Positions 856 through 38,961 of a stretch of 39,820 bases of DNA are shown in pieces. Position numbers and translations under genes: made by a program. Source of the stretch: Bacteroidales bacterium (GTDB taxonomy: Bacteria; Bacteroidota; Bacteroidia; Bacteroidales; WCHB1-69); assembly GCA_017438945.1 (NCBI GenBank), contig JAFRUI010000027.1, positions 1 to 39,820 of the forward strand, in the 5' to 3' direction. Numbering within the stretch: position 1 is the stretch's first letter; each line of letters starts with the position of its first letter. The notes beneath the pieces were generated by a model. That model had not been told where the DNA came from. It searched no databases and worked only from the letters and a program-made list of their open reading frames with translations.

Positions 856-985
856 TTCTGAGTATGGTACGTTGAAATCCTATTTGCATAAAGAGCTGAA
901 AAAGAACCTGGAATTACGGGATTGGCTTAAGGAAAAGGCTAAACAAGAACGGCTGAAAAAGAAGCAAGAACAGCTAAAGCGGTAA
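803..985 (+). pseudogene. Possible gene remnant, lysine-rich tail
   Basis: An open frame from 803 (after a stop at 800-802) to the TAA at 983-985 has no ATG start; the only candidate is GTG at 818. Its last part encodes a charged helix-like peptide ending EKAKQERLKKKQEQLKR. It overlaps the duplicated segment, and could be the tail of a gene whose 5' part was lost when the repeat arrived. I do not recognise a family. Low confidence that it is translated. Confidence 0.25.
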
Positions 986-1029
986 CCCATTAACCTCCTG
1001 ATCTTCTAACCTTCTAACTTTTTAACCTC
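983..1029. repeat. Heptamer-like array after the AGCS gene
   Basis: Degenerate 7-bp units related to TTCTAAC / CTTCTAA / TTAACCT lie just beyond the 3' end of the symporter gene (stop at 1043). Read on the gene's strand the units carry TAA and TAG. Confidence 0.5.
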
Positions 1030-1042
1030 TCCACACCGTTCG

Positions 1043-2635
1043 TCACGCCCAAAAATCCGCATTTTCAATCTCCAGTTCAGAAGGGTCGAATTTCGGCTCC
1101 ATGCCCTGCTTTTTCTCCTTTTCGTAGTCGCGGAGGGCGCGTAACGCTTTGGGAGAGAGTAGCAAGATGGCGATGATGTTGATCCAGGCCATAGCGCCAA
1201 CACCGATGTCGCCTAAGGTCCAGGTGACGCCGCTGGTAGTCAGGGAGCCGACGAACACCATCGTGACGGTGAAGATACGCAGGATCCAGACGACAATCTT
1301 TTCGCTGCGGTCATCACCGAAAACGCGGTCAGCGCGCTCCAACTCTGTCTTCTCCTGCTCAATAGCCTCCTGACTCCGTCCTTTTCCCCGCATCCGGCGC
1401 AGTTGCCACCGGCGGAAGCGGCTGAAGAGGTATATGAGGTTGGTCTCGGCGTAATAGTAATAGGCCATGATGGTGGTGAAGGCGAAGAAGAAGAGGGCGA
1501 TGGAGACGATGTCGCCGGCGGCACGTTTGCCGATGATTTTGCTGATGGCACTGATGGTATAGAAGACGCCAGGTTCGCCGTTGGGCGCATCGGGGTTCTG
1601 TTGAAGGTAGGTAACCGTGGTCTCGCCAGGGGCTGTCACCTGCACGGTGTCGATGATGTTGTAGGTCTGGCAGGCGAGGATCATCAGGGCCGTGGCGGTG
1701 CAGACTAGCAGGGTGTCGATATAGACGGAAAATGCCTGCACGAGTCCCTGCTTGACGGGATGGCTCACCTTGGCAGCGGCGGCCACGATGGGACCGGTGC
1801 CCTGACCGGCCTCGTTGGAGTAGATGCCGCGTTTCACGCCCCAGGAGATGGTGCTGCCGAGGATGGCGGAACCCAACGGACCCGCGCCCACCGCGCCGCG
1901 CAGCATGTCGAGGAAGACGCCGGGCACTAACTTGTAGTGGATGACGAGCACCACGATGGCGAGCAGGATGTAGAGGATGGCCATGAAGGGGGCGACGATC
2001 TGCGCCACATTGGCGATGCGCTTCACCCCGCCGATGATGACCAAGGCGAGCACCAACGCCACCGCGAGCCCCACGATCCACGGGGCGATGCCGAACGACT
2101 GCGACATGGACAATGCGATGCCGTTGCACTGCACCGGCGGCAAGAAGATGCCGCACGCGATGGCCGTGATGACGGCGAACACGCATCCGAAGAAGGTGCT
2201 GTGCAGCCCTTTCTCGATGTAGTAGGCCGGACCGCCGCGGAACTGTCCGTTATGGTTCTCCTTGAAGATCTGGGCGAGCGTGGCCTCCACAAATGCGCTG
2301 CCGGCCCCGAAAAAGGCGATGACCCACATCCAGACGATAGCACCCGGACCGCCGAAGCCGATGGCCGTGGCCACCCCCACGATGTTACCCGTGCCCACAC
2401 GCCCCGACAACGCCATCGCGAACGCCTGGAACGAGGTGATGCCCGTCTTCTGCTTCTTGTCGGTGCTGAAGAGCAGCCGGAACATCTCGCCGAAGCGGCG
2501 CACCTGCACGAAACGGGTTCTGAGGGAGAAATAGAGCGCTGATAGTAAGCAGAGACCCACCAATGCCGGGCTCCACACCCAGCTGTAGATGGTCTCTATG
2601 ACGGTTGCTATACGCGAAATGTCCAATAATACCAT
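1043..2635 (-). CDS. Alanine/glycine:cation symporter (AGCS family)
   Basis: A 530-residue inner-membrane protein with around ten or more hydrophobic segments. Family signatures are clear: GRVGTGNIVGVAT (about residues 78-90) and SNEAGQGTGP (273-282), with following helices rich in small residues. AGCS proteins import alanine, glycine or similar amino acids with sodium or protons. I chose the ATG at 2635 (MVLLDISRIATVIETIYSWV), which starts at the usual place before the first helix. A longer reading to 2728 would run into the upstream small gene. The C-terminal 40 residues are charged and cytoplasmic. Only 7 bases separate it from the upstream small membrane protein, so the two are probably co-transcribed from the box at 2905. 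The exact substrate cannot be read from the sequence. Confidence 0.9.
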   Translation of the reverse strand: MVLLDISRIATVIETIYSWVWSPALVGLCLLSALYFSLRTRFVQVRRFGEMFRLLFSTDKKQKTGITSFQAFAMALSGRVGTGNIVGVATAIGFGGPGAIVWMWVIAFFGAGSAFVEATLAQIFKENHNGQFRGGPAYYIEKGLHSTFFGCVFAVITAIACGIFLPPVQCNGIALSMSQSFGIAPWIVGLAVALVLALVIIGGVKRIANVAQIVAPFMAILYILLAIVVLVIHYKLVPGVFLDMLRGAVGAGPLGSAILGSTISWGVKRGIYSNEAGQGTGPIVAAAAKVSHPVKQGLVQAFSVYIDTLLVCTATALMILACQTYNIIDTVQVTAPGETTVTYLQQNPDAPNGEPGVFYTISAISKIIGKRAAGDIVSIALFFFAFTTIMAYYYYAETNLIYLFSRFRRWQLRRMRGKGRSQEAIEQEKTELERADRVFGDDRSEKIVVWILRIFTVTMVFVGSLTTSGVTWTLGDIGVGAMAWINIIAILLLSPKALRALRDYEKEKKQGMEPKFDPSELEIENADFWA

Positions 2636-2642
2636 ATTAATC

Positions 2643-2882
2643 TTAACTATTTGAATTAGGGATGTCGCAGGACTCCTCCGAATTTTCATTGTTTTCCTGC
2701 TCGCGTTTCTTCTGCATCCGTTCCACAATCAATCCCCACAGAACGGTGAACCCGATGCTGAATACAGCGGCTTCCTTTAGGATAGATGATGTCTCCCTAT
2801 GGCCAGAAATCAGGTCAAATGCGACAGAAATCCCAAAGACTATGGCGCAAATGAGGATATATCTAAAGATTTTATTCTTCAT
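2643..2882 (-). CDS. Small two-helix membrane protein
   Basis: 79 residues: a first hydrophobic helix (about 5-22, IFRYILICAIVFGISVAFDL), a short loop, a second helix (about 38-55), then a charged tail rich in Lys, Glu and Asn. A good -7 box lies 22 bases ahead of the ATG, and the symporter starts 7 bases after its stop. I do not recognise a named family. The context suggests it is co-expressed with the symporter. Its start and composition look like a real gene. Confidence 0.65.
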   Translation of the reverse strand: MKNKIFRYILICAIVFGISVAFDLISGHRETSSILKEAAVFSIGFTVLWGLIVERMQKKREQENNENSEESCDIPNSNS

Positions 2883-2904
2883 AGTAACGGTTTATTTGAA
2901 AATG

Positions 2905-2912
2905 CAAAGATA
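2905..2912 (-). promoter_or_regulatory. -7 box for the small protein / AGCS operon
   Basis: TATCTTTG on the minus strand matches TAnnTTTG exactly, 22 bases upstream of the ATG at 2882. Confidence 0.6.
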
Positions 2913-3057
2913 AATTTTTTCTGAAAGCGGGATATGTCACGAAAATTCTTTGCGAAAAAAGAGTTCAAAAAGGCTATTCTTATGTTAAAATCGGTTAAAA
3001 GTGCTGTTTGGGTCGGTTTTTGACAAGCCCTCAAGATTGTTGTAACGGATGTTTTAC

Positions 3058-3065
3058 TACTTTTG
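3058..3065 (+). promoter_or_regulatory. Orphan -7 box TACTTTTG
   Basis: A consensus-like box lies just before the duplicated segment that starts at 3087. It may be an older promoter of the gene at 3218 that was separated from it by insertion of the repeat, or a second promoter. Confidence 0.35.
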
Positions 3066-3086
3066 CCGATCGCAAGGCGTGCAGGA

Positions 3087-3223
3087 TTTCGTGCTTTCAG
3101 CACGGGGTATCCCCAGCCTTCATGATTGCATGGTGAGATTTTTCCGCATATTTTCCGCAATTCCGCATGGATTTCCGCAAAAAAGTGTATTTTTGCCCTC
3201 TCAAATATCCCGAAACGATGCCC
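3087..3223 (+). repeat. Duplicated upstream segment, copy 2
   Basis: Matches 719-855. It holds the same CGTGCTTTCAGCACG hairpin and GGGGTATCCCC palindrome, then an A/T-rich stretch with a proper -7 box, and it ends at the start codon of the Cys-cluster gene. The repeat therefore includes the whole promoter and leader of that gene. Confidence 0.65.
3188..3195 (+). promoter_or_regulatory. -7 box for the Cys-cluster/TonB-C gene
   Basis: TATTTTTG, an exact consensus match, 22 bases before the ATG at 3218. It argues against an upstream in-frame ATG at 3167, which would precede the promoter. Confidence 0.6.
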
Positions 3224-4120: not shown

Positions 4121-4172
4121 TCAGCGAAAGTTGTCGGCGAATTTTACGAATTAGGCAAATTATTATCTCATC

Positions 4173-4217
4173 CCTTAACCCTTAACCTTTAACCCTTAAC
4201 TCATTAACCTTCTAACT
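4173..4217. repeat. Heptamer array (CCTTAAC units)
   Basis: Tandem 7-bp units CCTTAAC, CCTTAAC, CTTTAAC, CCTTAAC, then degenerate ones. It runs into the 3' end of the gene at 4204-4614: the final Glu-Gly and the stop are within array sequence. On that gene's strand the units read GTTAAGG and contain TAA. Confidence 0.7.
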
Positions 4218-4645: not shown

Positions 4646-4712
4646 GCCCCTGTCGGGGCTTTTGGGAAGAAGGAACGGCTTCCTGCTACCGAGCTTTTGT
4701 CCCTGCCGGGAC
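4646..4712. repeat. Two GC-rich hairpins
   Basis: GCCCC/GGGGC (4646-4659, loop TGTC) and GTCCC/GGGAC (4699-4712, loop TGCC). They are alike in stem, loop and spacing, and resemble short dispersed palindromes elsewhere in the window (19859, 38176). They sit between the HsdR-N-like gene and nspC, where there is no gene. Confidence 0.5.
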
Positions 4713-4713
4713 C

Positions 4714-4765
4714 TATTGCCTTTTGCCTTTTGCCTTTTGCCTGTTGCCTGTTGCCTGTTGCCTAA
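4714..4765. repeat. Heptamer array (TTTTGCC / TGTTGCC units)
   Basis: Three to four TTTTGCC units then three TGTTGCC units, exactly 7 bp each, ending just outside the nspC stop codon at 4769. Confidence 0.8.
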
Positions 4766-4768: not shown

Positions 4769-5920
4769 TTACCCCAACTTCGCCTTGTACGAAGCGTAAT
4801 CCCCCGGTTGCGCCAGCATCTCGAAGTTGCCGTCCGAGTGGATGACCCCGATGGCGGGATGCGCCACCCCGTTGAAGAAGGTGGTCTTCACCATCGTGTA
4901 GTGGATCATGTCATCGAAGACGATGCGGTCGCCGATCTCCAATGGTTCGGGGAAGGCGAAGTCGCCCATGCCGATGAAGTCGCCGGCCAGACAGGAGCAA
5001 CCGCCCAAGCGATAAACGTGCTTGCTGTTCTCGTCGGGTTCCGTGGCACCGAGGACCGTCGGTTTGTAGGGCATTTCGAGACAATCCGGCATGTGGCAGG
5101 CGAAGGAGACGTTGAGCATCGCGATTTTGATGCCCTTGTTCTCCACGATGTCCTCCACTGTGGAGGTCAGCACGCCGGTCTGCCAACCCACGGCCTCGCC
5201 TGGCTCGAGGATGACCTCCTCCAAGTTCGGATAGCGACTGCGGAAGTCCTGCAGCAGTCCGATGAGGTGCGGGATGTCGTAGTCGGCGCGGGTGATGTGG
5301 TGACCGCCGCCCATGTTGAACCATCTGCACTGCTTGATGAGGTCGGAGAACTTCTCCTCCGTGGCCTTCAGACAGCGTTCGAGGGCGTAGCTGTCGTTTT
5401 CGCAGAGCACGTGGAAGTGCAGTCCCTCGATGCCTTCGGGCAGCGTGTCGGGCATGTCCTCGCGCAGGATGCCCAGTCGGGAACCCGGCACGGCGGGGTT
5501 GTAGAGGTCGGTCTCGATTTCTGAATATTCGGGGTTGATGCGCAGTCCGAGGGAGACCTTCTTGGGGAAGGCGGCGGCCTGTTCGCGGAACCGGTCGTAT
5601 TGCCCCAACGAGTTGAACGTTAGGTGACTGCTGTACATGAGCAGCTGTTCGAAATCGTTGTCGGTATAGACGGGTGCGTAGGTGTGCGCCTCGCAGCCCA
5701 TCTCCTCGGCGATGAGCCGCGCCTCGTTCACGGAACTGGCGGTGGCGCCGCTCAGCCACTCGTTGATGAGCGGGAACGACGGCCAGAAGGCGTAGCCTTT
5801 CAAGGCGCAGATGATCTTCACTCCGGCCTCTTTCTGCACGAGGTCCAACAGTTGCAGGTTTGCCAACAAAGCATCCTCCGAGAGGATGTAGCAGGGGGAG
5901 GGGAATGCATCGTATTTCAT
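4769..5920 (-). CDS. nspC: Carboxynorspermidine decarboxylase
   Basis: 383 residues, a fold III PLP decarboxylase related to diaminopimelate and ornithine decarboxylases. It makes spermidine or norspermidine from the carboxylated precursor, the last step of the route used by most Bacteroidetes. The PLP lysine is Lys41 in CALKGYAFWP; the glycine-rich phosphate site is GGGHHITRADYD (204-215); EPGEAVGWQTG (239-249) and the catalytic Cys region GCSCLAGD (307-314) follow. Length is normal. The partner carboxynorspermidine dehydrogenase is not in the window. It starts 25 bases after the upstream lipoprotein gene, so may be read through from it. A TATCTTTG at 5954-5961 could be its own promoter but lies inside the lipoprotein's last codons. 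Confidence 0.92.
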   Translation of the reverse strand: MKYDAFPSPCYILSEDALLANLQLLDLVQKEAGVKIICALKGYAFWPSFPLINEWLSGATASSVNEARLIAEEMGCEAHTYAPVYTDNDFEQLLMYSSHLTFNSLGQYDRFREQAAAFPKKVSLGLRINPEYSEIETDLYNPAVPGSRLGILREDMPDTLPEGIEGLHFHVLCENDSYALERCLKATEEKFSDLIKQCRWFNMGGGHHITRADYDIPHLIGLLQDFRSRYPNLEEVILEPGEAVGWQTGVLTSTVEDIVENKGIKIAMLNVSFACHMPDCLEMPYKPTVLGATEPDENSKHVYRLGGCSCLAGDFIGMGDFAFPEPLEIGDRIVFDDMIHYTMVKTTFFNGVAHPAIGVIHSDGNFEMLAQPGDYASYKAKLG

Positions 5921-7329: not shown

Positions 7330-7412
7330 ATTCTACATTCAGCATTCTACATTCAGCATTCATCATTAAAAAGGGGAACCCTTCTCGATCCCTCATGATT
7401 GTGAATTGTGAA
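7330..7412. repeat. Heptamer array plus short hairpin-like element
   Basis: 7330-7367 has 7-bp units ATTCTAC and ATTCAGC in alternation. Next is AAAAAGGGGAACCC with partial complement, and then GTGAATT GTGAATT AA, which abuts the stop of the LytTR gene (7413). The same order, AAAAAGGGGAACCCT followed by 7-bp GAATTAT-type units, occurs at 11814-11876. No gene is seen in 7268-7412. Confidence 0.6.
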
Positions 7413-8471
7413 TTAAGTAATCGGATGGTATCCGCCGCTTTTCTTGCTGCCGGTGAATTCGATTAGCCCACTCTTTTTGAGTTCGAAGAGGCAGCGATCC
7501 AAGGTGGTTTGCGAAAAGGAGATGTGGGAAATGAGCTCTGGGGAGCGGCAACCCGGGTGCTCCTGAATGTAGTGGAGCACAGCATCGAGCTTCTCTTTCG
7601 GGGGAACAGACGGTCCTTTTTTGCCCTTTCCTTCTTCGCTTTCTGGCTGCACGTCCTCTTTCTCTTCAATATTCCCACGCAGATACTCGTCAATGGCGGT
7701 TGCTATCTGAGGGGCTCTTTTGGTGTCCAATTTGAAAATGAGGGGCGTTCTCGTAAAAGGCATCGACTTCAGGGCCACCGCCTTTCCGTCGCAAGAGGTG
7801 ATATGCTGGAAAGGAACGATAACAGAAGAGGATATACGGATAAACTCTTTGTTCCCGAAATGCTGCCCCAGGTATTTGATGGTGCAATAGCGCGTGTATT
7901 TCATGCCGTCCACCGTATGGATTTCCGTTTCATTTCCGTTTTTCTTGCAATAAAGGATATTGTCAACGGGTATGTGCTGGCAGTTGTTCTTGTCATCGCA
8001 AACATCAAGCATTCTGGCAAATTGATAGACAACCTTGCTCTCCGTTTCCAAAGACTGTTGAAGTTGTTTTCTTTCTCTCAACATATAGGGGATGAAATTC
8101 AAAGCGAGGTTGCGGAGGAAGATTAGGACCAGATGTTTGGATAAAAGATGGTGTGCTTCAACTTCAGTTGTATGCACTGTATAGCATTGCATAATAAATG
8201 AATATCCAAGGGATAGCTCAACCCCTCCTGATACCACACAGGCAATGACAATCGAAAGCCAATATAGAGAAGTGTGGTTCCGATACAGTTTCGGATACAG
8301 GATGAAATAGTTTGCATACAGTATGGTCAGCAGTAACAATCCTGAAAGAAACTCTTTGGCCGTGCTACCTAAATAGGGGCGAAGAAATGCATTCCGGGAA
8401 AAGAACCATAGCAGTGCGGCACAAAACAGGACATTCAGCAAAAAGATGACAATTGTCTTTTGGTGTTTCAT
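7413..8471 (-). CDS. Membrane-bound LytTR regulator with extra C-domain
   Basis: 352 residues. The N-terminal 130 contain about four membrane helices in the style of Bacteroidetes LytS-like sensors (ILYPKLYRNHTSLYWLSI). Next come a short linker (RERKQLQQSLETE) and a LytTR DNA-binding domain (about 160-265: VDNILYCKKNGNETEIHTVDG, then a YCTIKYLGQHFGNKEFIRISSS core). No histidine kinase or receiver domain is present. The last 60 residues, after a Lys/Glu/Pro linker, look like a winged helix (KEKLDAVLHYIQEHPGCRSPEL, then DRCLFELKKSGLIEF). It thus appears to be a one-component membrane transcription factor with two DNA-binding modules. It is divergent from the secreted protein at 8793, with a strong inverted repeat between them, and probably controls that gene and itself. 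Confidence 0.75.
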   Translation of the reverse strand: MKHQKTIVIFLLNVLFCAALLWFFSRNAFLRPYLGSTAKEFLSGLLLLTILYANYFILYPKLYRNHTSLYWLSIVIACVVSGGVELSLGYSFIMQCYTVHTTEVEAHHLLSKHLVLIFLRNLALNFIPYMLRERKQLQQSLETESKVVYQFARMLDVCDDKNNCQHIPVDNILYCKKNGNETEIHTVDGMKYTRYCTIKYLGQHFGNKEFIRISSSVIVPFQHITSCDGKAVALKSMPFTRTPLIFKLDTKRAPQIATAIDEYLRGNIEEKEDVQPESEEGKGKKGPSVPPKEKLDAVLHYIQEHPGCRSPELISHISFSQTTLDRCLFELKKSGLIEFTGSKKSGGYHPIT

Positions 8472-11813: not shown

Positions 11814-11876
11814 AAAAAGGGGAACCCTCCCGAGCTCCCCAAAATTATGCATTATGCATTATGAATTATGAATTAA
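11814..11876. repeat. GGGGA/TCCCC hairpin plus heptamer array
   Basis: AAAAAGGGGAACCCTCCCGA and the following GCTCCCC can form a weak stem between two convergent genes. Then 7-bp units ATGCATT ATGCATT ATGAATT ATGAATT reach the aminotransferase stop (11878). The layout resembles 7366-7412. Confidence 0.6.
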
Positions 11877-13280: not shown

Positions 13281-13420
13281 TTAGGACTGAGGACTGAAGA
13301 CTTAAGACTTAAGACTGAGGACTATACTATGACTACAACTTCTGTCGAAGTCTAAGTTTAAGTCTATAGGGATCAGGACCCCTTCCCCCCAACGTCTAAC
13401 GTCCAACGTCTTACGTCTCA
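13281..13420. repeat. Heptamer arrays in mixed orientation
   Basis: 13281-13324 has GGACTGA / AGACTTA units, 13346-13365 has complementary AAGTCTA-type units, and 13390-13420 has AACGTCT / AACGTCC units up to the lptD stop. The first and second parts can pair. No gene is present in 13236-13423. Confidence 0.7.
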
Positions 13421-18379: not shown

Positions 18380-18985
18380 ATGGAAATCACAGGAAAATTA
18401 ATTCAAAAACTGCCCGTGAAGTCGGGTGTCAGCAGTTCAGGAAATAATTGGTCGAAGGCAGAATTTGTCATAGAGACCGTAGAACAATATCCTAAAAAGG
18501 TGTGTGCCAATTTGTGGGGGGATCGCGCCCGTGCGTTGGATCAATTCCAGGAAGGAAGTCTTATTACCGTTTCCTTCGATTTGGAGTCTCGTGAGTTCAA
18601 CGGGAACTGGTACACCGACGTGAGGGCCTGGAAGGTGGAGGCCGCCACTCCGGCCGCTGTCACCGGCGCGCCCGTTTACGGTCAGCCGCAAGGTTATGTG
18701 CAGCAGCCGCAGGGCTATGCCCAACCTCAGCAGCCGATGTATCCGCCGCAAGGTTATCCCCAACAGCCGCAAGGTTATGGGCAGCCCCAGCAGGGTTACG
18801 CTCAACCTCAGCAGCCGGCCTATCCCCCTCAACCGCAAGGATATGCGCCTGCTCCCCAACAGGGTTATCAGGCATCTCAGCAACCTTCTTCTTTCGCCCA
18901 GCCGCAGCCCGATATGAACACACTGCCCAATATCCCTCAGGAGACGTTTACCGACGAGGGTGGTGCAGATGACCTGCCGTTCTGA
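18380..18985 (+). CDS. DUF3127 protein with SSB-like C-terminal tip
   Basis: 201 residues. Residues 1-92 are the DUF3127 domain (MEITGKLIQKLPVKSGVSSS, WSKAEFVIETVEQYPKKVCA, REFNGNWYTDVRAWKVE), which looks like a small OB-fold. Residues about 95-185 are a disordered linker made of repeats such as PQGY, QPQQ and YPPQ. The end is TDEGGADDLPF, which closely resembles the acidic tip of single-stranded DNA-binding protein (DDDIPF type). Domain order (OB-like fold, Gln/Gly/Pro linker, acidic tip) is the same as SSB. A role in binding nucleic acid or SSB partners is inference. The stop codon is part of an 8-bp array. Confidence 0.8.
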   Translation: MEITGKLIQKLPVKSGVSSSGNNWSKAEFVIETVEQYPKKVCANLWGDRARALDQFQEGSLITVSFDLESREFNGNWYTDVRAWKVEAATPAAVTGAPVYGQPQGYVQQPQGYAQPQQPMYPPQGYPQQPQGYGQPQQGYAQPQQPAYPPQPQGYAPAPQQGYQASQQPSSFAQPQPDMNTLPNIPQETFTDEGGADDLPF

Positions 18986-19034
18986 CGATGAGGCGATGAA
19001 ACGATGAGGCGATAAAACGATGAGGCGATGAATT
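18984..19034. repeat. Octamer array joining two genes
   Basis: Units CGATGAGG, CGATGAAA, CGATGAGG, CGATAAAA, CGATGAGG, CGATGAAT. The array begins with the TGA stop of the DUF3127 gene and its last unit supplies the ATG of the NlpC/P60 gene at 19028. Confidence 0.8.
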
Positions 19035-19813
19035 CGGGTATATGTCATTTGACGGTGATACCGATGCGTGCGGAACCGTCGCATTGCTCCGAGATGGTGA
19101 GCCAGCTGTTGTTCGGCGAAACCTATCGAATACAGGGAACGACGGAAGAATGGGTGCAGATTGAAACCCATCACGACAATTATTCGGGTTGGATCCAACG
19201 GAAACAGTGTTTCAAAGTGTCCGATGAGGTTTTTGACCGTTATTTGAAAGCAGATAAATTGCGATTGAGCCTGCCTTTCGTGTCAACGGGAATGAAACTC
19301 CCCAAGGTGTTGACTATGGGGGCGTTGATTGTCGCCGATTCGGAAAAGAGTCCCATCCGGATTTGCTCCCCGGCTCCAAATGCGGAGAATTGGTGGCCTG
19401 CGGACGGTGTGCCGGACATCTCCCACGTCCAGCGTATGGAGCTGCTCCGAAAATCAGCACTTTCGCTGCTTGGTGCCCCGTATCTTTGGGGCGGTCGCAC
19501 TCCGCTCGGCATCGACTGCTCCGGATTCGTCCAACTGTTGTACTCTTTGGTCGGCGTGCAGCTGCCCCGCGATGCTTCGCAACAGGTCACATTTGGCGAG
19601 CCGCTCGACTTCGTTCACGAGGCTCGTCTTGGCGACCTTGCCTTCTTCCACAACGAGGAAGGTCGCATTGTCCATGTGGGCATGATGCTCGGTGACGGCA
19701 CCATTATCCATTCAAGCGGCAGCGTCCGCATCGACCGCATTGACGAGACAGGAATCTTCAACGAGGAGACGCAGCGGTATTCGCACCAGTTACGGGTGAT
19801 CGTGAGGGTGTGA
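19028..19813 (+). CDS. NlpC/P60 peptidase with SH3 domain
   Basis: 261 residues, no signal peptide seen. An N-terminal bacterial SH3-like part (CHLTVIPMRAEPSHCSEMVS, then QLLFGETYRI, then WVQIETHHDNYSGWI) is followed by a second small beta region and the C-terminal NlpC/P60 domain (about 138-261). Catalytic Cys164 is in GIDCSGFVQLLY, with His216 in RIVHVGMM and His228 in TIIHSSG as the remaining dyad/triad. This family cuts gamma-D-Glu-diamino acid bonds in peptidoglycan peptides, like YkfC, often for recycling in the cytoplasm, which would fit the missing export signal. The start at 19028 keeps the first SH3 strand; a start at 19064 would remove it. Confidence 0.88.
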   Translation: MNSGICHLTVIPMRAEPSHCSEMVSQLLFGETYRIQGTTEEWVQIETHHDNYSGWIQRKQCFKVSDEVFDRYLKADKLRLSLPFVSTGMKLPKVLTMGALIVADSEKSPIRICSPAPNAENWWPADGVPDISHVQRMELLRKSALSLLGAPYLWGGRTPLGIDCSGFVQLLYSLVGVQLPRDASQQVTFGEPLDFVHEARLGDLAFFHNEEGRIVHVGMMLGDGTIIHSSGSVRIDRIDETGIFNEETQRYSHQLRVIVRV

Positions 19814-19855
19814 GGCGATGACGCGATGATACGATGATGCGATGAATGAATGAAT
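19811..19855. repeat. Octamer array after NlpC/P60
   Basis: Units close to CGATGACG, CGATGATA, CGATGATG, CGATGAAT, then GAAT repeats; the TGA stop of the peptidase gene is its first element. Confidence 0.7.
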
Positions 19856-22715: not shown

Positions 22716-22763
22716 TTTTATTCGTTGAATTTGTTATTATTTGACTTTTTAGTTTTGGCTTTT

Positions 22764-22802
22764 AGCTATTAGCTTTTGGCCAACAGCCAATAGCTAATAG
22801 CT
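22764..22802 (-). repeat. Kal-kce intercistronic inverted repeat
   Basis: Arms 22764-22780 and 22786-22802 (17 bases, one mismatch, loop CAACA) are built from 7-bp AATAGCT-type units. The right arm overlaps the kal stop codon. In RNA this would be a strong hairpin between the two cistrons, with no T-run after it. Confidence 0.65.
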
Positions 22803-23199
22803 AGTTGTTCTTTCTCTGGCATTGTTTGGGAACCACGCACGTACCTGACGCGCGGCAGACCACGATGGGTTCTTCCAGCACGTCAGCGGCGGAAGCGCTG
22901 ATGTCAGGACGCGGACGAACGACTTTGCGGGCCTCGAAGACCATCTTGCGGGAGGTGTTGCCCACCTTGGTGATTTCACCGACAGCCTCGATGTAGTCGC
23001 CAGCGTACACAGGGGCGAGGAACTCCACATTGTCGTAAGCGCAGAACAGACCTTCGTCACCGTCTTGCATGATCAGCAACTCGGTGGCCACATCGCCAAA
23101 AAGGGCGAGCATGTGGGCGCCGTCAACTAAGTTTCCGCCGTAATGGGCATCTTGAGAACTCATTCTCAAACGAATCATAGATGTTTTCTTTTCTTCCAT
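22801..23199 (-). CDS. kal: 3-aminobutyryl-CoA ammonia lyase
   Basis: 132 residues, a single hotdog domain. It removes ammonia from 3-aminobutyryl-CoA to form crotonyl-CoA, the step right after Kce. Typical segments are [31 protein letters not shown], and [20 protein letters not shown]. The start at 23199 ([11 protein letters not shown]) is chosen because the -7 box TACCTTTG lies at 23254-23261, so a longer reading is not possible. The C-terminal part is rich in Val/Cys ([16 protein letters not shown]). It is the first gene of the kal-kce pair. Confidence 0.88.
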
Positions 23200-26403: not shown

Positions 26404-26440
26404 CGCACGTCATACGTCAGTCCTCAGTCTTCAGTCCGAT
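26404..26440. repeat. Heptamer array at the PNGase gene end
   Basis: CACGTCA TACGTCA GTCCTCA GTCTTCA GTCC. On the gene strand it reads GGACTGA AGACTGA GGACTGA. It encodes the last residues (Gly-Leu-Lys-Thr-Glu-Asp) and the TGA stop. Confidence 0.75.
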
Positions 26441-31226: not shown

Positions 31227-32405
31227 CTAGCCTCCAACCGCCGTCAGCAGCATGAAGATACCGATCCCCAGGTAGTTGCCGACGGCATACCCCAGCAGCC
31301 CGATGGCGATGCCGGGGAGAATCACCGACTTGTCGTGCAGCACGGCGGCCACCATCGGCACGAACGGCGGCGAATTGATCAGGGAAATGGACGACGTGAG
31401 CGTCATCGCCCCGCTGATCTTGAAGAGTCGGGCCAGCAGGATCTGGAGTGCCAGCGACCCGAAAACCACAAAGGCGATGTAATACAATATATATATGTAC
31501 TTCGAGAATTCAAGTTCGTGGACGTTCACCATGGTGGCGACGGCCAGACAGAAGACATAGACGAAGTAGAGGCCGGTGTCGAAAGTGCCCTCCAGCTTGC
31601 GCACCGGTTTCCAAAACGAGATCAGGATGGAGAAGGTGGTGATGACGATGATGATGAATGCCGTCGTGTTTTTCATCGGGATGAGGTAGGTGAGTCCGAC
31701 GGCGAAGGTCACGATGGCAATGGCACCGAGTATGGACGCGGCGCGGTTCAGGATTTTCTGCTTCAGCGATTTGGTCGTGACTTCAGGAGCCGACTCTGAC
31801 AAATTGTCCGTGACAGTGTCTGTGGAGGCTGCCGGGGTGTTTCCCATCTTGGGGAAGAACCAACGGACGATCTTGCCGCCGAAGAAGACGATGACCAGCA
31901 GATAGACGGCAGTAACGACCAGGTCGTAGCCGGAAACGAGGAGGAAAAGGTTGTGGGGCAGGCTCACGGCCTTGGCCACAGGCGCGAAGTTGGGGATCCC
32001 CCCGGTGTAGATTCCGGTCATGGCGGCGGTCACTTTCGCGAAATCTTCGAGGCTCACTCCCGACGCCACCGCCTGGGAACGGAACAGGAAGAACCCGATG
32101 ATGTTGACGGCCATGATGCTGACCAACCCGACGAGGAAGGCCTTGAGCACCGCCTTCGCCGACCATTTCCGGAAGTCGCAGCTGCACAGCATCAGCGGGA
32201 TGGAGGTCAGCACGGCCATGTTGGAGATGTTCTCGAAAAGGTAAGTGGATTCTTTCCCGGCAATACCGGCGTTCCCCACCACCAGCCCGATGACATAGAG
32301 GATGACCATCGGGGAGATTTTCTCGATGACGGGCCATTTCCTTGCCGCAAGCATCACGAGCAGCGGGATGACGTAGAGGTACAGTGTAGCGATTATTGGA
32401 GGCAT
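31227..32405 (-). CDS. DUF819 family membrane protein
   Basis: 392 residues with about ten membrane helices and a loop of Ser/Thr/Glu near the middle (about 195-220). The family signatures GLVVGNAG near residue 42 and the repeated GGIPNFAPVA and SPPFVPMVAAV segments suggest an inverted-repeat transporter fold. Members are called DUF819 or YjcL-like, with unknown substrate. The start at 32405 (MPPIIATLYLYVIPLLV) is chosen because the -7 box at 32433 excludes the longer reading. Confidence 0.85.
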   Translation of the reverse strand: MPPIIATLYLYVIPLLVMLAARKWPVIEKISPMVILYVIGLVVGNAGIAGKESTYLFENISNMAVLTSIPLMLCSCDFRKWSAKAVLKAFLVGLVSIMAVNIIGFFLFRSQAVASGVSLEDFAKVTAAMTGIYTGGIPNFAPVAKAVSLPHNLFLLVSGYDLVVTAVYLLVIVFFGGKIVRWFFPKMGNTPAASTDTVTDNLSESAPEVTTKSLKQKILNRAASILGAIAIVTFAVGLTYLIPMKNTTAFIIIVITTFSILISFWKPVRKLEGTFDTGLYFVYVFCLAVATMVNVHELEFSKYIYILYYIAFVVFGSLALQILLARLFKISGAMTLTSSISLINSPPFVPMVAAVLHDKSVILPGIAIGLLGYAVGNYLGIGIFMLLTAVGG

Positions 32406-32450: not shown

Positions 32451-32530
32451 AGGACTGGGGACTTTGGACTGGGGACTTTGGACTGAGGACTTTGGACTTT
32501 GGACTTAGGACTGGGGACTGGAGACTGAGG
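32451..32530. repeat. Heptamer array, left of the four-helix gene
   Basis: About eleven 7-bp units: AGGACTG, GGGACTT, TGGACTG, GGGACTT, TGGACTG, AGGACTT, TGGACTT and so on, with the core GGACT fixed. It is the approximate inverted copy of the array at 33041-33126. Confidence 0.88.
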
Positions 32531-32555: not shown

Positions 32556-32939
32556 TTATGACAAATTGTCAGTTTTAAGAATTTGGCGTTTGCTGCGGCG
32601 AAGACCATTGAGAAGGACTCTGACTCTTTCGATTTTTTGTTTGCATTCAAACAATTGTTCTTCTGAAAGATACTCTAAATCATAAGCCAACAGAACCTGA
32701 CAATAGACTTCCATCAATGATCCCATCGCAATATCAAAAAAATGTATCTGCTCTTTTGTCGAATATCGTGCGTTTCCTTCTACCAGGTTTGATGAAACCG
32801 AAGTTACCGCACGACGTAATTGATCTCCTAAACCATATTTTTCAATAGTTGGGAATGTGGCCTGAAGACGATATATCATTTTGACCAATTGCCTTGATTC
32901 TTTCCAAACTTCCATGTTTTCAAACGGATATGTTTCCAT
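32556..32939 (-). CDS. Four-helix-bundle protein (S23/IVS family)
   Basis: 127 residues, related to the protein encoded in 23S rRNA intervening sequences and to the Avd accessory protein of diversity-generating retroelements. Typical segments are FENMEVWKESRQLVKMIYRL, FPTIEKYGLGDQLRRAV, SVSSNLVEGNARYSTKEQIH and FFDIAMGSLMEVYCQV. Basic helices bind nucleic acid in relatives. No reverse transcriptase or variable repeat is nearby. The start at 32939 is placed after a -7 box at 32973-32980. The gene is flanked by inverted heptamer arrays. Confidence 0.88.
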   Translation of the reverse strand: METYPFENMEVWKESRQLVKMIYRLQATFPTIEKYGLGDQLRRAVTSVSSNLVEGNARYSTKEQIHFFDIAMGSLMEVYCQVLLAYDLEYLSEEQLFECKQKIERVRVLLNGLRRSKRQILKTDNLS

Positions 32940-32972
32940 AATGTAGTTTATTTGTTTATAAAAATTTAACAG

Positions 32973-32980
32973 CAAAAATA
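32973..32980 (-). promoter_or_regulatory. -7 box of the four-helix-bundle gene
   Basis: TATTTTTG on the minus strand, 34 bases before the ATG at 32939. Confidence 0.5.
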
Positions 32981-33040
32981 CATTATTTTTTCAATTGTCA
33001 ATATGTGTCGTTTTTTTTTCTCTTAAATGCATGTTCACTC

Positions 33041-33126
33041 CCCAGTCTCAAGTCTCCAGTCCCCAGTCCTAAGTCCCCAGTCCTAAGTCTCCAGTCCTCA
33101 GTCCTCAGTCCTCAGTCCTCAGTCCC
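33041..33126. repeat. Heptamer array, right of the four-helix gene
   Basis: About twelve 7-bp units: CAGTCTC AAGTCTC CAGTCCC CAGTCCT AAGTCCC CAGTCCT AAGTCTC, then CAGTCCT four times. The core AGTCC is the complement of the left array core. It ends 7 bases before the sigma-54 promoter. Confidence 0.88.
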
Positions 33127-33133
33127 AAAAAAC

Positions 33134-33150
33134 TTGGCACGGATTTTGCA
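33134..33150 (+). promoter_or_regulatory. Sigma-54 promoter of groES-groEL
   Basis: TTGGCACGGATTTTGCA fits the RpoN consensus TGGCACG-N4-TTGC(A/T) without a mismatch; the -24 GG is at 33136-33137 and the -12 GC at 33148-33149. Start of transcription would be near 33160, leader about 47 bases. No TAnnTTTG box and no CIRCE element is visible before groES. Confidence 0.7.
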
Positions 33151-33206: not shown

Positions 33207-33482
33207 ATGAAAAGTATCAAACCTTTAGCAGACAGAGTTTTAGTGAAACCTGCAGAAGCTGAACAGAAAACCGCCGGCGGCATCATCATCCCCGACACCG
33301 CCAAGGAAAAACCCCAACAAGGCACCGTCATCGCAGTCGGCCCCGGCAAAAAGGACGAACCCATGACCGTCAAGGTGAAGGACACCGTGCTCTACGGCAA
33401 ATACTCCGGCACCGAAATCCAACTCGACGGCGAGACTTATCTTATCATGAAGGAGAGCGACATTTACGCGATATGTAAATAG
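33207..33482 (+). CDS. groES: Co-chaperonin GroES
   Basis: 91 residues, the lid of the GroEL chamber. [20 protein letters not shown], the mobile loop [26 protein letters not shown] and [18 protein letters not shown] are as expected. The stop TAG is the first element of a heptamer array. Co-transcribed with groEL across a 186-base spacer, which is long for this pair. Confidence 0.97.
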
Positions 33483-33614
33483 GACTTTGGACCTTGGACT
33501 GAGGACTGAGGACTATGACTCAACGTTGACGGATATCCTCTCAAGTCCCAAGTCTCAAGTCTCAAGTCTTAAGTCTTAAGTCTTAAGTCTTAAGTCTTAA
33601 GTCTCAAGTCTCAA
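33481..33614. repeat. Inverted heptamer arrays between groES and groEL
   Basis: Left block 33481-33515: GGACTTT GGACCTT GGACTGA GGACTGA GGACTAT. Right block 33541-33614: AAGTCCC AAGTCTC AAGTCTC, then TTAAGTC-type units about six times, AAGTCTC. The blocks are complementary in their cores and would form a large stem-loop in the groESL mRNA. Confidence 0.88.
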
Positions 33615-35303: not shown

Positions 35304-35308
35304 TCTAA

Positions 35309-35338
35309 TGTAGAATGCAGAATTAAGAATGCAGAATA
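35309..35338. repeat. Heptamer array after groEL
   Basis: AATGTAG AATGCAG AATTAAG AATGCAG AAT, 7-bp units that follow the groEL stop; the same family as 38927-38961. Confidence 0.7.
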
Positions 35339-35400: not shown

Positions 35401-35421
35401 TATTTTTGCAATTTATTTTTG
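35401..35421 (+). promoter_or_regulatory. Two -7 boxes for the OPT gene
   Basis: TATTTTTG at 35401-35408 and again at 35414-35421, spaced 13 bases apart; leader 75-90 bases to the ATG at 35496. Confidence 0.5.
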
Positions 35422-35495
35422 ACGGATAACGGGGGTGGAATTTCGCTTGGATTCCGTCAGGATTGTATGATGACAAATAATTGAAAATCATTAAT

Positions 35496-37514
35496 ATGGA
35501 AGAAGAAAAAACTACGATTGAACAAGAGGAAAACGAAATCAAACTTCCCGAAAACGCGTACCGGGAGCTCAAGGAGGGCGAAGAGTACAAGCCTATCTTG
35601 TTGAGTGACAAAAAGTATCCCGAACTGAACGGCTGGACTATCTTCTGGGGTATCCTGATGGCGGTCATCTTTTCGGCGGCCACAGCCTACTCAGGACTGC
35701 GTTTCGGCCAGGTGTTTGAGGCGGCCATCCCCATCGCTATCATCGCCGTGGGTATTTCCACCATCGCCAAGCGGAAGAGCCCGTTGTCGGAAAATGTGCT
35801 GATCCAGTCTATCGGCGCGAGTTCCGGCGTGATTGTGGCGGGTGCCATCTTCACGTTGCCGGCCATCTACATCATCAAGGAGACCAATCCTGTGGCGGGC
35901 GCGGAAATCCAGGTCAATTTCTTCCAGATATTCATGTCGTCGCTGTTGGGCGGTTTTCTGGGCATCCTTTTCCTGATACCGTTCCGTAAGTACTTTGTTT
36001 CCGACATGCATGGCAAGTACCCGTTCCCCGAAGCCACAGCCACAACGGAGATCATCGTGTCGGGTGCCAAAGGAGGTAACCAAGCCAAATTACTGTTGAT
36101 CAGCGGTTTGATAGGTGGTCTGTACGATTTTCTGATGACGACCTTCCATTTCTGGGCCGACACCATCTCCACGCGCATGGCGGGGTGGGGTGAACAGTTG
36201 GCCATGAATCACAAATATGTCTTTAAGATGAGTGCCGAATCCATTTTGTTGGGCACTGGCTACCTGATCGGTCTCAAATACGCTGCTGTCATCTGTGCCG
36301 GTTCCGCTCTTTCTTGGTGGGTGCTGACTCCGCTGTTGGGTCATTACGGCATGCTCGAAGTGGACGGCGTGGCAACGGCCATGAGCACTCTCGACCCTGA
36401 TGTAATCTTCTCCGGATACGTACGTTACATCGGTATCGGTGGTATCGCTATGGCCGGTATCCTCAGTGTGATCAAGTCTGCGGGTGTGATCAAGAAATCC
36501 ATCGGCGTGGCGGTGAAAGCCGGCAAGTCTGCAGGTGCGAAGAGCGAGGTGGTGCGCACGCAGCGTGACCTCTCCATGAAGATCCTCATGTTCGGATTCT
36601 TGGCCGTCATTGTCATGATGGTGCTCTTTTTCTTCCTGGGCGGCATGCACATGAATCTGACGCAGGTGCTTGTGGCCTTGTTGGTGGTCTTCCTGTTCGC
36701 TTTCCTGTTCACCACGGTGGCGGCCACGGCTATCGCCACAGTGGGCACCAACCCTGTCTCCGGTATGACGATGATGACGCTGATTCTCTCCTCCTTTATC
36801 CTCGCCTCTGTCGGGTTGAAGGGCGGCACGGGCATCATCACGGCATTGGTGGTGGGCGGCATCGTCTGTTCTGCACTTTCCATGGCCGGCGGCTTCATCA
36901 CCGATTTGAAAGTCGGTTACTGGATCGGCACGTCCCCGTATAAACAGCAAGCTTTCAAGTTCGTGGGCACGTTCGTCTCCGCATTGACGGTGGGTGCGGT
37001 CATCATGTTGCTGTCCAAGACTTACGGATACACGGGTGAGAATGCCTTGGTGGCTCCGCAGGCAAACGCCATGGCGGCCATCATCGAGCCGATGATGTAT
37101 GGCGGCTCCACCCCGTGGATTCTTTACATCGTGGGTGCCGTTCTGGCTATCCTGTTGGACGTGATCGGCGTTCCCGCACTGGCATTCGCGCTCGGTATGT
37201 TCATCCCGTTGCAGCTGAACCTCCCGTTGTTGGTGGGCGGTTTCCTCGCCTGGTTGGTGAAGACCCGCAGCAAGGATGAGGCAATCAACAAGCAACGCGC
37301 CGAGAAGGGCACGCTCCTCGCCTCCGGGTTGCTCGCTGGCGGTGCTATCATGGGTGTCCTGAGTGCCATCCTCAAATACGCCGGCGTCGAACCCACCTTC
37401 ATGGCCGACTATATCGGTTCCCCGATGTACAACATCCTTGCCATCGTGATGTTCGCGGGACTCTGCTGTTACCTCTTCTTCCACGCCACACATACGAAAG
37501 AAAAACTTCAATAA
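35496..37514 (+). CDS. OPT family oligopeptide transporter
   Basis: 672 residues with about 14-16 membrane helices. An acidic cytoplasmic head (MEEEKTTIEQEENEI) is followed by the OPT pattern GWTIFWGILMAVIFSAATAY and SGLRFGQVFEAAIPIAI, then FPEATATTEIIVSGAKGG and the late helices. OPT proteins import small peptides or metal chelates with protons. Prokaryotic members of this size are common in Bacteroidetes. The ATG 35496 is preferred over a TTG at 35481. The TAA stop is part of a heptamer array. Co-direction with the kinase gene and only 32 bases between them suggest one operon. Confidence 0.9.
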   Translation: MEEEKTTIEQEENEIKLPENAYRELKEGEEYKPILLSDKKYPELNGWTIFWGILMAVIFSAATAYSGLRFGQVFEAAIPIAIIAVGISTIAKRKSPLSENVLIQSIGASSGVIVAGAIFTLPAIYIIKETNPVAGAEIQVNFFQIFMSSLLGGFLGILFLIPFRKYFVSDMHGKYPFPEATATTEIIVSGAKGGNQAKLLLISGLIGGLYDFLMTTFHFWADTISTRMAGWGEQLAMNHKYVFKMSAESILLGTGYLIGLKYAAVICAGSALSWWVLTPLLGHYGMLEVDGVATAMSTLDPDVIFSGYVRYIGIGGIAMAGILSVIKSAGVIKKSIGVAVKAGKSAGAKSEVVRTQRDLSMKILMFGFLAVIVMMVLFFFLGGMHMNLTQVLVALLVVFLFAFLFTTVAATAIATVGTNPVSGMTMMTLILSSFILASVGLKGGTGIITALVVGGIVCSALSMAGGFITDLKVGYWIGTSPYKQQAFKFVGTFVSALTVGAVIMLLSKTYGYTGENALVAPQANAMAAIIEPMMYGGSTPWILYIVGAVLAILLDVIGVPALAFALGMFIPLQLNLPLLVGGFLAWLVKTRSKDEAINKQRAEKGTLLASGLLAGGAIMGVLSAILKYAGVEPTFMADYIGSPMYNILAIVMFAGLCCYLFFHATHTKEKLQ

Positions 37515-37541
37515 CCCATAACCTATAACCCATAACCATTA
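37511..37541. repeat. Heptamer array between OPT and kinase genes
   Basis: ATAACCC ATAACCT ATAACCC ATAACCA. The first unit holds the OPT stop codon. Confidence 0.8.
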
Positions 37542-37546
37542 AAGAA

Positions 37547-38164
37547 ATGCATATAGCTGTCGCCGGAAATATAGGATCCGGAAAAACAACGTTAACAGGA
37601 ATGCTGGCCAAGCATTACGGATGGGAACCCCTCTACGAAAGCGTGGAGGACAACCCTTACCTCGCCAGCTTTTATCAGGATATGCAACGCTGGTCGTTCA
37701 ATATCCAGATCTATTTTTTGAACAGTCGCTTCCGTCAGGTGCTGGACATCCGTCAGCGCAAGAAAGACGTCATCCAAGACAGGACGATTTATGAGGACGC
37801 ATACATTTTCGCTCCGAATCTGCATCGGATGGAGTTGATGGCCTCGCGCGATTTCGAGAACTATGCCTCGTTGTTCGAGCTGATGAAGAAGTTCTTGCAG
37901 CCACCCGATTTGCTCATTTACCTTAAAGCGGATGTGGAGACCCTGATCTCGCAGATTTTGAAACGCGGTCGTGCCTATGAGGGAGACATCAGCCTGTCGT
38001 ATTTGGAGAATCTTAATAATCTGTATAACAACTGGATAGACAAATATGACGAGGGTAAATTGCTCGTGGTGGATGTCAACAAATTGAAGTTCGCCGAACG
38101 TCCGGAAGATTTCGGGGTGATTATCGAGAAGATTGACGCCGAATTGTACGGTCTCTTCAAATAA
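37547..38164 (+). CDS. Deoxynucleoside kinase
   Basis: 205 residues, P-loop kinase of the dCK/dGK family. P-loop GNIGSGKTTL (8-17), substrate-site Glu in EPLYESVEDNPYL, the DRTIYEDAYIF motif with the DR(S/T) base, and the LID arginines in ILKRGRAYE are all present. It phosphorylates deoxyadenosine, deoxyguanosine or deoxycytidine for salvage. The exact base preference cannot be read. Ends 50 bases before kdsB. Confidence 0.9.
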   Translation: MHIAVAGNIGSGKTTLTGMLAKHYGWEPLYESVEDNPYLASFYQDMQRWSFNIQIYFLNSRFRQVLDIRQRKKDVIQDRTIYEDAYIFAPNLHRMELMASRDFENYASLFELMKKFLQPPDLLIYLKADVETLISQILKRGRAYEGDISLSYLENLNNLYNNWIDKYDEGKLLVVDVNKLKFAERPEDFGVIIEKIDAELYGLFK

Positions 38165-38175
38165 CCCATCTTGTA

Positions 38176-38197
38176 GAGACGTTTCCTGAAACGTCTC
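38176..38197. repeat. GAGACGTTT hairpin, dispersed palindrome
   Basis: GAGACGTTT / AAACGTCTC (9-bp perfect stem, loop CCTG), preceded by TTGTA, between the kinase gene and kdsB. Same style as 19859-19879. Confidence 0.6.
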
Positions 38198-38214
38198 ATA
38201 ATATCGTGAAGAAT

Positions 38215-38949
38215 ATGCGAGATTTTAACGTTTTCGGTATTATCCCCGCCCGTTACGCGTCCACCCGTTTCCCTGGCAAGCCGTTGGCTGTCCTTCAGGG
38301 CAAACCGATGGTTCAGTGGGTGTATGAACGTGTGCAATCCTCTGAGGTATGCGATCTTGCCGTGGCCACGGACGATGATCGCATCGCGGATTGTGTATGT
38401 GGTTTCGGCGGGAAGGTGGTGATGACCTCTCCTGACCACGCCTCCGGCACCGATCGTTGCGGAGAGGCGGCAAGATCCATGCATCCGAGCGATAACGACG
38501 TGATTATCAATATCCAAGGTGATGAGCCACTGATTTCCCCAAGGGAAATCCACCTGCTCGCCAGTGCATTTGAAGACCGTTCAGTGCAAATCGCCACCTT
38601 GGTCAACCCGTTTCAGGAAGGGGGCCTTCTCCACAATCCCAATGTGGTGAAAGTGGTGAAAGCAAAGAACGGTAATGTACTGTATTTCAGCAGACTCCCG
38701 ATTCCTTATCTGCGTGAGAACGCCACTCCACCCAAAAACTATTTCAGACATATCGGCATCTACGCCTACCGTTATGGAGCGTTGAAAGAGATTGTGAAGC
38801 TTCCGACTTCGGAATTGGAGAACAGCGAAAAACTGGAACAGCTCCGCTGGCTTGAAAACGGCTACACCATCCGCGCCTTGGAATGCGACTATCAAGGCAT
38901 CGGGGTGGACACGCCGGAAGACCTGAAGAATGTAGAATTAAGAATGTAG
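38215..38949 (+). CDS. kdsB: CMP-KDO synthetase
   Basis: 244 residues. It activates KDO with CTP for LPS inner core. [20 protein letters not shown] is the nucleotide-binding loop, with [52 protein letters not shown] and GVDTPEDL after it. The ATG 38215 fits best; GTG 38206 would add three residues. The last residues NVELRM and the stop are encoded by 7-bp units AATGTAG/AATTAAG, which continue after the gene. Confidence 0.93.
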
Positions 38950-38961
38950 AATTAAGAATAA
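38927..38961. repeat. Heptamer array across the kdsB stop
   Basis: AGAATGT AGAATTA AGAATGT AGAATTA AGAATAA: exact 7-bp phase, covering the end of kdsB and the gap to the next start at 38963. Confidence 0.85.

Follow-up and report, generated by a model that had tools for sequence, protein, structure and literature searches.

Why do short tandem arrays with a period of seven or, less often, eight nucleotides crowd the ends of genes in a Bacteroidales genome? The question is raised by a 39,820-nt stretch of contig JAFRUI010000027.1 from a Bacteroidales bacterium of the WCHB1-69 lineage (hereafter the window). Its initial annotation described such arrays at gene 3' ends and considered two readings, a frame-independent translation stop and a mutational habit of slippage. 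It overlooked a gene for a 23S rRNA intervening-sequence protein (IVP, or S23p; Pfam family PF05635) and the inverted pairing of the arrays around it. We consider it probable that the arrays represent one family of elements. The full element would consist of a G-rich 7-bp array, an IVP gene and a reverse-complement array. Arrays standing alone (solo arrays) and opposite-polarity pairs lacking the IVP gene are, with the same probability, its non-autonomous or decayed forms. In the window the element and an adjacent gene-less pair comprise the following features.

32556..32975, reverse strand: IVP/S23p gene (PF05635), sole protein of the element; Pfam E-value 2.8e-34, and genome family search
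33039..33126, reverse strand: 5' arm of the IVP element, G-rich, GGACTGA to GGACTGG on the IVP strand; Tandem Repeats Finder (TRF), and RNA fold with the 3' arm
32452..32530, reverse strand: 3' arm of the IVP element, AGTCCCC/AGTCCAA on the IVP strand, reverse complement of the 5' arm (inverted similarity 0.76)
33482..33514, forward strand: G-type array from the groES stop codon, forming an IVP-less pair with 33539..33614; from the array list
33539..33614, forward strand: C-type array ahead of groEL, completing the groES-groEL pair; TRF

The IVP open reading frame (ORF) matches the PF05635 profile with 118 bits (curated cut-off 33.8). Its relatives in PDB, found by sequence with a profile of alignment A1, in which the window protein is the first row, are 2rld and 2gsc, each an entry with five chains. 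The IVP-family protein of X. campestris is described as a pentamer in the available part of PMC4990558. Judged by sequence, the window IVP may belong to the same family of homopentamers and is predicted to form a four-helix bundle. The element has gene 31227-32405 and groES as its neighbours and hence is not inside a 23S rRNA gene; when it is folded as RNA, both arms pair into a long duplex (z -10.8, 20 shuffles). The whole genome (G000; 1.86 Mb, 63% complete) contains five PF05635 matches. Four have complementary flanking arrays, with a unit particular to each locus (GACTTA, which is a 6-bp unit, GGACTGA, GTTAGCA and TAATTCA), and the fifth is a divergent paralogue without such flanks.

The crowding of period-7, and then period-8, arrays at gene ends was borne out at two scales. 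The window list, built from TRF output for periods 7, 8, 14 and 16, contains 19 arrays, 12 of which overlap a stop codon or lie at most 12 bp from one. The genome sample of 624,618 bp comprised the window and the first 20 kb at most of contigs C1-C40, with C41-C43 left out. Exact repeats, defined by at least 12 consecutive matches, number 70 at period 7, 41 at period 14, 12 at period 21 and 6 at period 28. The multiples of eight give 7, 8 and 10 repeats (periods 8, 16 and 24), periods 12 and 18 give six each, and periods 1-5 give none. Second-order Markov sequences yielded 0.0 period-7 repeats, and chance is disfavoured as an explanation. A called gene contains the midpoint of 19 of the 138 period-7/14/21 arrays, so the arrays are mostly located in spacers; the calls come from a simple hexamer model made for this analysis, which itself failed to call the IVP ORF. 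In co-directional spacers, 43 of 86 arrays overlap the upstream stop codon (27 cases) or start within 5 bp of it. Random placement of the same 86 arrays gives 6.0 and never more than 15 in 2000 runs. The downstream start codon lies within 5 bp in nine cases. Neither of the outcomes that the initial annotation had named as fatal to its observation, arrays no nearer to stops than expected or other periods equally common, was seen in the genome sample. Periods 7 and then 8 do lead, but some loci have period 6, 9, 12 or 13, and the description of the arrays as a property of gene 3' ends is incomplete, as start codons are also preceded by arrays, in the opposite polarity.

Complementary flanks are frequent around IVP genes at large. 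To score them, we compared the 260 bp 5' of the IVP gene with a second 260-bp stretch, reverse-complemented, that begins 30 bp before the gene end. This was done for 82 non-redundant IVP genes (85 before removal of copies) from the related genomes G000-G038, about half of them hand-picked among the matches listed. The score exceeded the 95% level of mismatched loci in 75 of the 82 (median 44 vs 17), and in direct orientation in four. The array finder detected arrays on both sides of 65 of these genes and on neither side of two, and the period class was equal on both sides in 65 of 68 loci. Among ordinary genes of the same genome complementary flanks occur in 8 of 472, and among short genes in 1 of 168. 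None of 11 divergent paralogues exceeded the flank null, one of them having a one-sided array.

The same architecture was observed beyond the order. In a protein-motif search of bacterial genomes, the best 80 of at least 590 stretches, after removal of ORFs with a flank shorter than 120 bp and with two loci contributing two ORFs each, gave 62 of 79 ORFs above the threshold and 10 of 79 in direct orientation. The taxa represented include Clostridia, Flavobacterium, Planctomycetales, Acidobacteria, Thiohalocapsa and the candidate phyla radiation (CPR). On viral contigs the flanks are complementary in 29 of 37 cases and alike in direct orientation in five, several of the 37 being near-copies. An IVP query against 72,556 plasmids matched 31 records, 25 of them cyanobacterial. 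Twelve cyanobacterial loci from these records were compared: 11 score above 27.5 and eight exceed their own stricter null of 38.3, and at one (L346) the flanks are more alike in direct orientation. Among nine copies whose sequences were read, those of Trichormus, Aulosira, Nostoc and Picosynechococcus take up almost the whole spacer separating two genes of an operon. Three cyanobacterial plasmid IVP genes (L346, L347 and L353) lie among CRISPR genes, in the gap of cas6 and cas4 and in that of cas10 and a cmr3-type gene, and in two stretches (L083 and L125) two IVP genes stand near each other, the L083 pair in opposite orientation.

The arms have a polarity. On the IVP strand G outnumbers C in the 5' arm at 69 of 75 loci and is outnumbered at three; the corresponding cross-phylum counts are 49 and 5 of 56. 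In co-directional spacers, solo arrays obey the same polarity along the transcript: 42 of those nearer to the stop are G>C and 14 are C>G, vs 2 and 25 of those nearer to the start (p 3e-9). Spacers with two arrays are G-then-C in eight cases and C-then-G in none, with six CC and two GG. The genes beside the IVP gene are both on its strand at 43 loci, both on the opposite strand at 22 and mixed at seven, with 10 contig-edge loci uncounted.

The unit sequence varies, and both arms vary together. In pairs of orthologous loci with IVP identity below 0.7, the match between arms is 0.54 within a locus and 0.11 between species, and within-locus similarity prevails in all 11 pairs. The IVP arms adjoining groES have period 7, 8/16 or 12 depending on the species. 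At one locus the segment between the arms has been inverted: L108 and L114 have collinear outer flanks, with the IVP gene and inner DNA flipped between the arms. The comparison of L105 with L107 and L113 gives a one-sided hint of the same inversion. Overall, among 60 IVP pairs with identity of at least 0.72, 51 have collinear flanks, three are apparently inverted (two of them one-sided) and six are at different loci.

Solo arrays share their vocabulary with the arms. In G000, 118 of 131 solo units have a counterpart among the IVP arms of the sampled genomes, vs 24 of 131 for shuffled units. The corresponding numbers of matches are 28 of 29 in G020, 16 of 18 in G012, 19 of 23 in G006 and 19 of 21 in G013. 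Median copy number is 4.7 in either IVP arm and 4.6 in solo arrays, the detection limit being about 2.5 copies. A single universal unit was not recovered: the consensus within the order is weak (3.57 bits vs a null maximum of 3.24). The cross-phylum consensus NNNNTAG is stronger (4.33 vs 3.31 bits), for a set gathered with one subfamily (A2).

The abundance of arrays follows the number of IVP genes. Across 21 genomes array density correlates with IVP genes per Mb (rho 0.76, p 5e-5), as measured on stretches that were contig starts or places picked by contig number and so non-random, with an IVP locus included in the G000 and G012 samples. Six IVP-negative genomes of the order, with 352,117 bp sampled, contain two arrays. 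For 59 more genomes of the phylum, period-7 patterns were counted over the entire genome, one long array being counted many times, and these counts also track IVP number (TAG, rho 0.55; GAT, rho 0.72). At least two TAG matches are found in 26 of 43 IVP-positive and 1 of 16 IVP-negative genomes, and at least two GAT matches in 32 of 43 and 4 of 16. The period-10 controls are present in five of the 59 genomes for TAG and in 39 for GAT, the latter not following IVP number (rho 0.16, p 0.24). One genome, G100, is an outlier with 232 period-7 TAG matches and two IVPs.

Presence and absence of the element can be followed at syntenic sites. In the spacer of locus L044, compared in 24 genomes of the same genus, six genomes have an intact IVP element with AGTTAGC arms and one has a decayed copy (26.6 bits). 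Another 13 have solo arrays with many different units, one has a 9-bp repeat alone, and three have neither gene nor array. The genes on either side share an ATGA overlap in the array-free genomes G012 and G016, and in G000, G006, G002, G013, G020 and G005 the stop codon of the upstream gene lies within the array; that the native overlap was replaced by an in-array stop was judged by eye, from the sequences of 10 of the 24 genomes. At the groES spacer, G000 and the closely related G013 differ in a similar way by presence and absence. At L045 the flanking gene order is not conserved, and the comparison with an empty site is informative for G002 alone.

These observations are best joined in the following scheme. 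The IVP would recognise the arms as a single strand or hairpin and drive their spread and renewal in trans, in the manner of REP-associated tyrosine transposases (RAYTs) acting on repetitive extragenic palindromic (REP) sequences. Pairing of the arms could let one arm template the other, and slippage could alter copy number. The element would occupy intercistronic spacers within operons, often beginning at the upstream stop codon, and spacers behind stop codons may simply be where insertion is tolerated. The element, small and with a single gene for a predicted four-helix-bundle protein, is probably selfish. It would be the intercistronic counterpart of the intervening sequence (IVS) of 23S rRNA. 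In the Coxiella IVS, according to the available text of PMC4990558, a variable number of tandem GACAGAT heptamers stand just before the S23p ORF, the termini are complementary, and the sequence is called selfish. Because this plan, heptamers before the ORF included, is the same, the window element is best regarded as an intercistronic relative. A bolder proposal, which we hold tentatively and regard as doubtful, is that this is a widespread class of selfish elements in which period and polarity, rather than sequence, define the ends. The single-stranded array would be read by a pentameric ring of IVP, one unit per subunit, and the paired arms would template each other and so be rewritten together. 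The heptamer repeats reported since those of cyanobacteria would, on this view, be traces left by one family, both in mRNA spacers and in 23S rRNA. The median of 4.7 copies, near five, is cited for the idea of one heptamer per subunit; this, like binding of the arms by the IVP and their spread by it, we infer.

Several observations weigh against the single-family reading. The 11 pairs with joint change share loci, and some of them may result from independent insertions into a single hot spot. With higher IVP identity the effect fades: arms are closer within than between loci in 11 of 17 pairs at identity 0.7-0.8, in five of nine at 0.8-0.9 and in none of 12 above 0.9, where the reverse holds. 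No transposition event was directly seen among the 60 IVP pairs at identity of at least 0.72. Unit similarity tracks IVP similarity only above about 45% identity, and a one-to-one code between IVP and unit was dropped because no relation is seen below that level. Solo units of G002 match IVP arms in 5 of 12 cases, vs three for shuffled units. The 88 array-bearing spacers hold no IVP remnant above 10 bits other than the window IVP, and the idea of IVP remnants lying in solo spacers was dropped. Neighbouring array pairs less than 400 bp apart are inverted in eight of 49 cases, one of which includes an arm of the window IVP, and direct in six. The groES left arm encloses an apparent host palindrome. 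Complementarity is loose in the window groES-groEL pair (score 19, null median 10, 95% level 41.6), and none of 11 groES-groEL pairs exceeds the 95% null; the idea of strict inverted repeats at this site was dropped. As to abundance, the correlation within the genus alone is rho 0.50 (p 0.097, n=12), G014 has four IVPs and no array in 59 kb, and G053 has no IVP and yet 26 period-7 TAG matches, all on one strand. Four genomes with 8-14 kb each (G027, G032, G034 and G038, with 0, 2, 1 and 2 arrays) were left out of the 21, and the correlations ignore shared ancestry in both the 21-genome and the 59-genome sets.

Among the alternatives, the one that survives best, though we consider it unlikely, is that the arrays are RNA hairpins useful to the host, kept as sites of mRNA processing, stability or translation, with the IVP as a domesticated binding protein. 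The long duplex formed by the arms of the window element agrees with it, as do the dependence of the arrays on transcription polarity, the recurrence of groES-groEL arrays in relatives with differing units (G-then-C in 10 of 24 loci) and the cutting of the Coxiella IVS stem by RNase III, reported in the available part of PMC4990558. However, sites in close relatives are array-free, including 6 of the 24 groES-groEL spacers, the pairs at this spacer are only loosely complementary, and units are replaced wholesale. The near-absence of arrays from the IVP-negative genomes of the order speaks against it as well. Pair polarity is not decisive, because inverted symmetry alone yields it.

A mutational habit is less probable still. 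Here replication slippage in steps of 7-8 nt, with the length held for example by the polymerase, builds arrays wherever they are harmless, and they gather behind stops since starts and promoters are purged. The lead of period 7 across many unit sequences and the mostly intergenic position fit such a habit, and a polymerase footprint was proposed by Mrazek in 2007, as related in the available portions of PMC4679880 and PMC4692102. Slippage, as suggested in the initial annotation, may indeed alter copy number. It leaves unexplained the reverse-complementary arms around one gene family, at 75 of 82 IVP genes and with one period on both arms in 65 of 68 loci, vs 1 of 168 short ordinary genes. Polarity, the joint change of the arms, the unit vocabulary common with IVP arms and the dependence on IVP number are likewise unaccounted for, and slippage as the sole cause is disfavoured.

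Very little probability remains for a REP/RAYT-like system or a retroelement, in which a Y1 transposase or a reverse transcriptase moves the arrays and the IVP is a passenger or a helper resembling Avd, the accessory protein of diversity-generating retroelements (DGRs). PF05635 does resemble Avd in sequence and structure alignment, according to the accessible part of PMC10053308, a weak bAvd match below the cut-off appeared in the Pfam scan, and a Y1_Tnp transposase gene of the IS200/RAYT type lies at the window start (184-528). Against this, RVT_1 matches are absent from the array-rich genomes G000 (63% complete, as noted), G020 and G012 and number one each in G002, G006 and G013. Array density is unrelated to reverse transcriptase number (rho 0.06) and to Y1 transposase number (rho 0.15), and both were rejected as drivers.

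The weakest alternative is a frame-independent translation stop selected at gene ends. Arrays do at times provide the upstream stop (a whole stop codon lies in 19 of 59 stop-proximal arrays), in line with the 27 of 86 overlaps given above, and stop-proximal arrays close all three frames on the sense strand in 32 of 46 cases vs 19 of 46 on the antisense strand. Closure on the sense strand, however, does not exceed the level expected from unit composition. Of 133 G000 arrays, a fraction of 0.44 closes all three sense frames vs 0.48 for column-shuffled units, the opposite of the G-rich strand closes them as often (0.50), and the value of the IVP 5' arms was reached in 54 and 52 of 300 shuffles. 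With no sense-strand excess and with C-type arrays before starts left unexplained, selection for stops is disfavoured and, in our estimate, extremely improbable. As a separate observation, stop triplets on the C-rich strand of G000 arrays are above the level of column-shuffled units (0.80 vs 0.55).

The arrays can be related to several known systems. Heptanucleotide tandem repeats in spacers, the short tandemly repeated repetitive (STRR) sequences of cyanobacteria, have been noted for decades. The present arrays share their features, being 7-bp tandem units that are over-represented and intergenic, and the initial annotation's pointer to STRR was apt, since such arms flank IVP genes on cyanobacterial plasmids. 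One gene between inverted repeats, with many solo repeats in gene-end spacers, is also the layout of REP/RAYT systems. The window-type element has a comparable layout, but the IVP is a predicted four-helix-bundle protein and not Y1_Tnp, the repeats are tandem arrays set by period and not by sequence, and they do not follow the Y1 transposase in abundance. DGRs differ in that reverse transcriptase number is uncorrelated with the arrays, and no reverse transcriptase match was found in G000 or G020. Miniature inverted-repeat transposable elements (MITEs) are marked by a core, conserved among copies, between inverted ends; here the seven inverted array pairs with a gap below 30 bp are separated by -1 to 26 bp.

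Like the 23S rRNA IVS of Coxiella and Leptospira, the window element has an S23p/IVP ORF between complementary termini. It differs in lying in a spacer of protein genes, outside 23S rRNA, in having long arrays as both arms, in a unit that varies by locus and in its many solo arrays. The available parts of PMC4679880 and PMC4692102 describe 7-bp spacer repeats, TAACTGA in Beggiatoaceae and GGGAATC/GGGGATT in Xanthomonas and Nostoc, with varied units, some inverted pairs and indels in 7-nt steps. Over-representation of heptanucleotides is credited there to Mrazek 2007, the polymerase footprint is the sole cause offered, as a guess, and, unlike the present arrays, which are tied to IVP elements, these repeats are not linked to an IVP in those parts. 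For the IVP/S23p proteins, the available part of PMC4990558 gives the structure as solved and the function as not known. Beyond the Coxiella IVS, no paper linking heptamer arrays with IVP was found in searches of an open-access library (subscription journals and preprints excluded). Heptamers and IVS are each known already. IVP elements may account for the abundance of heptamer repeats among bacterial genomes. Once they are connected, the repeats and the IVP proteins both become open to experiment, as most IVP genes bring a candidate target sequence on both sides. If the reading is right, a large and hardly annotated class of elements would be reshaping the spacers of operons as well as stop codons and invertible segments across many phyla.

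The other arrays of the window are listed below; TRF was used for all, and Pfam where stated.

991..1028, reverse strand: 8-bp array, G-type on the gene strand, after the stop of AGCS (Na:alanine symporter); Pfam
4172..4209, reverse strand: 7-bp array, G-type on the gene strand, at the stop of the HSDR_N-like gene; Pfam
4712..4763, reverse strand: 7-bp array AGGCAAC/AGGCAAA, 5 bp past the stop of gene 4769-5920 (Orn_DAP_Arg_deC); Pfam
7330..7367, reverse strand: 7/14-bp array GAATGCT/GAATGTA, 51 bp past the stop of gene 7413-8192
7398..7414, reverse strand: short 7-bp array over the stop of gene 7413-8192
11843..11875, reverse strand: 7-bp array TAATTCA/TAATGCA at the aminotransferase stop; Pfam
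13281..13323, reverse strand: 7-bp array AGTCCTC/AGTCTTA, one of two in the spacer 3' of the LptD-like gene
13391..13418, reverse strand: 7-bp array AGACGTA/AGACGTT, 5 bp past the stop of the LptD-like gene; Pfam
18985..19031, forward strand: 8/16-bp array CGATGAGG at the stop codon ending gene 18380-18985
19811..19845, forward strand: 8-bp array starting on the stop codon of gene 19094-19813
22747..22803, reverse strand: adjoining inverted heptamer arrays TTTTAGC and TAGCTAA over the stop of gene 22801-23163
26407..26437, reverse strand: 7-bp array over the 3' end of gene 26417-28126
35307..35337, forward strand: 7/14-bp array AGAATGC directly past the groEL stop
37511..37537, forward strand: 7-bp array ATAACCC, C-type, over the stop of the OPT transporter gene; Pfam
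38926..38963, forward strand: 7/14-bp array AAGAATGTAGAATT where gene 38215-38949 ends, extending to the next start

Two of these units recur in IVP arms: that of 4712..4763 in relatives (L047 and L049) and that of 11843..11875 at locus L045. A Pfam scan of 10 window ORFs matched nine, namely AGCS, HSDR_N, an Orn/DAP/Arg decarboxylase, aminotransferase, LptD, the IVP, groES, groEL and OPT. Longer repeats are also present, namely an 81-bp repeat within gene 18380-18985 (18683-18832) and an 87-bp tandem repeat (4.3 copies, 93% match) within the last ORF (39381-39752). In the genus, groES is preceded by a TGGCACGGATTTTGCA-like sequence (window 33130-33150; L137-L145) that looks like a sigma-54 promoter, for which the consensus is TGGCAC-N5-TTGCA; sigma-54 control of groESL would be unusual. 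Farther upstream of groES a TGACA..TGTCA-like palindrome is visible by eye.

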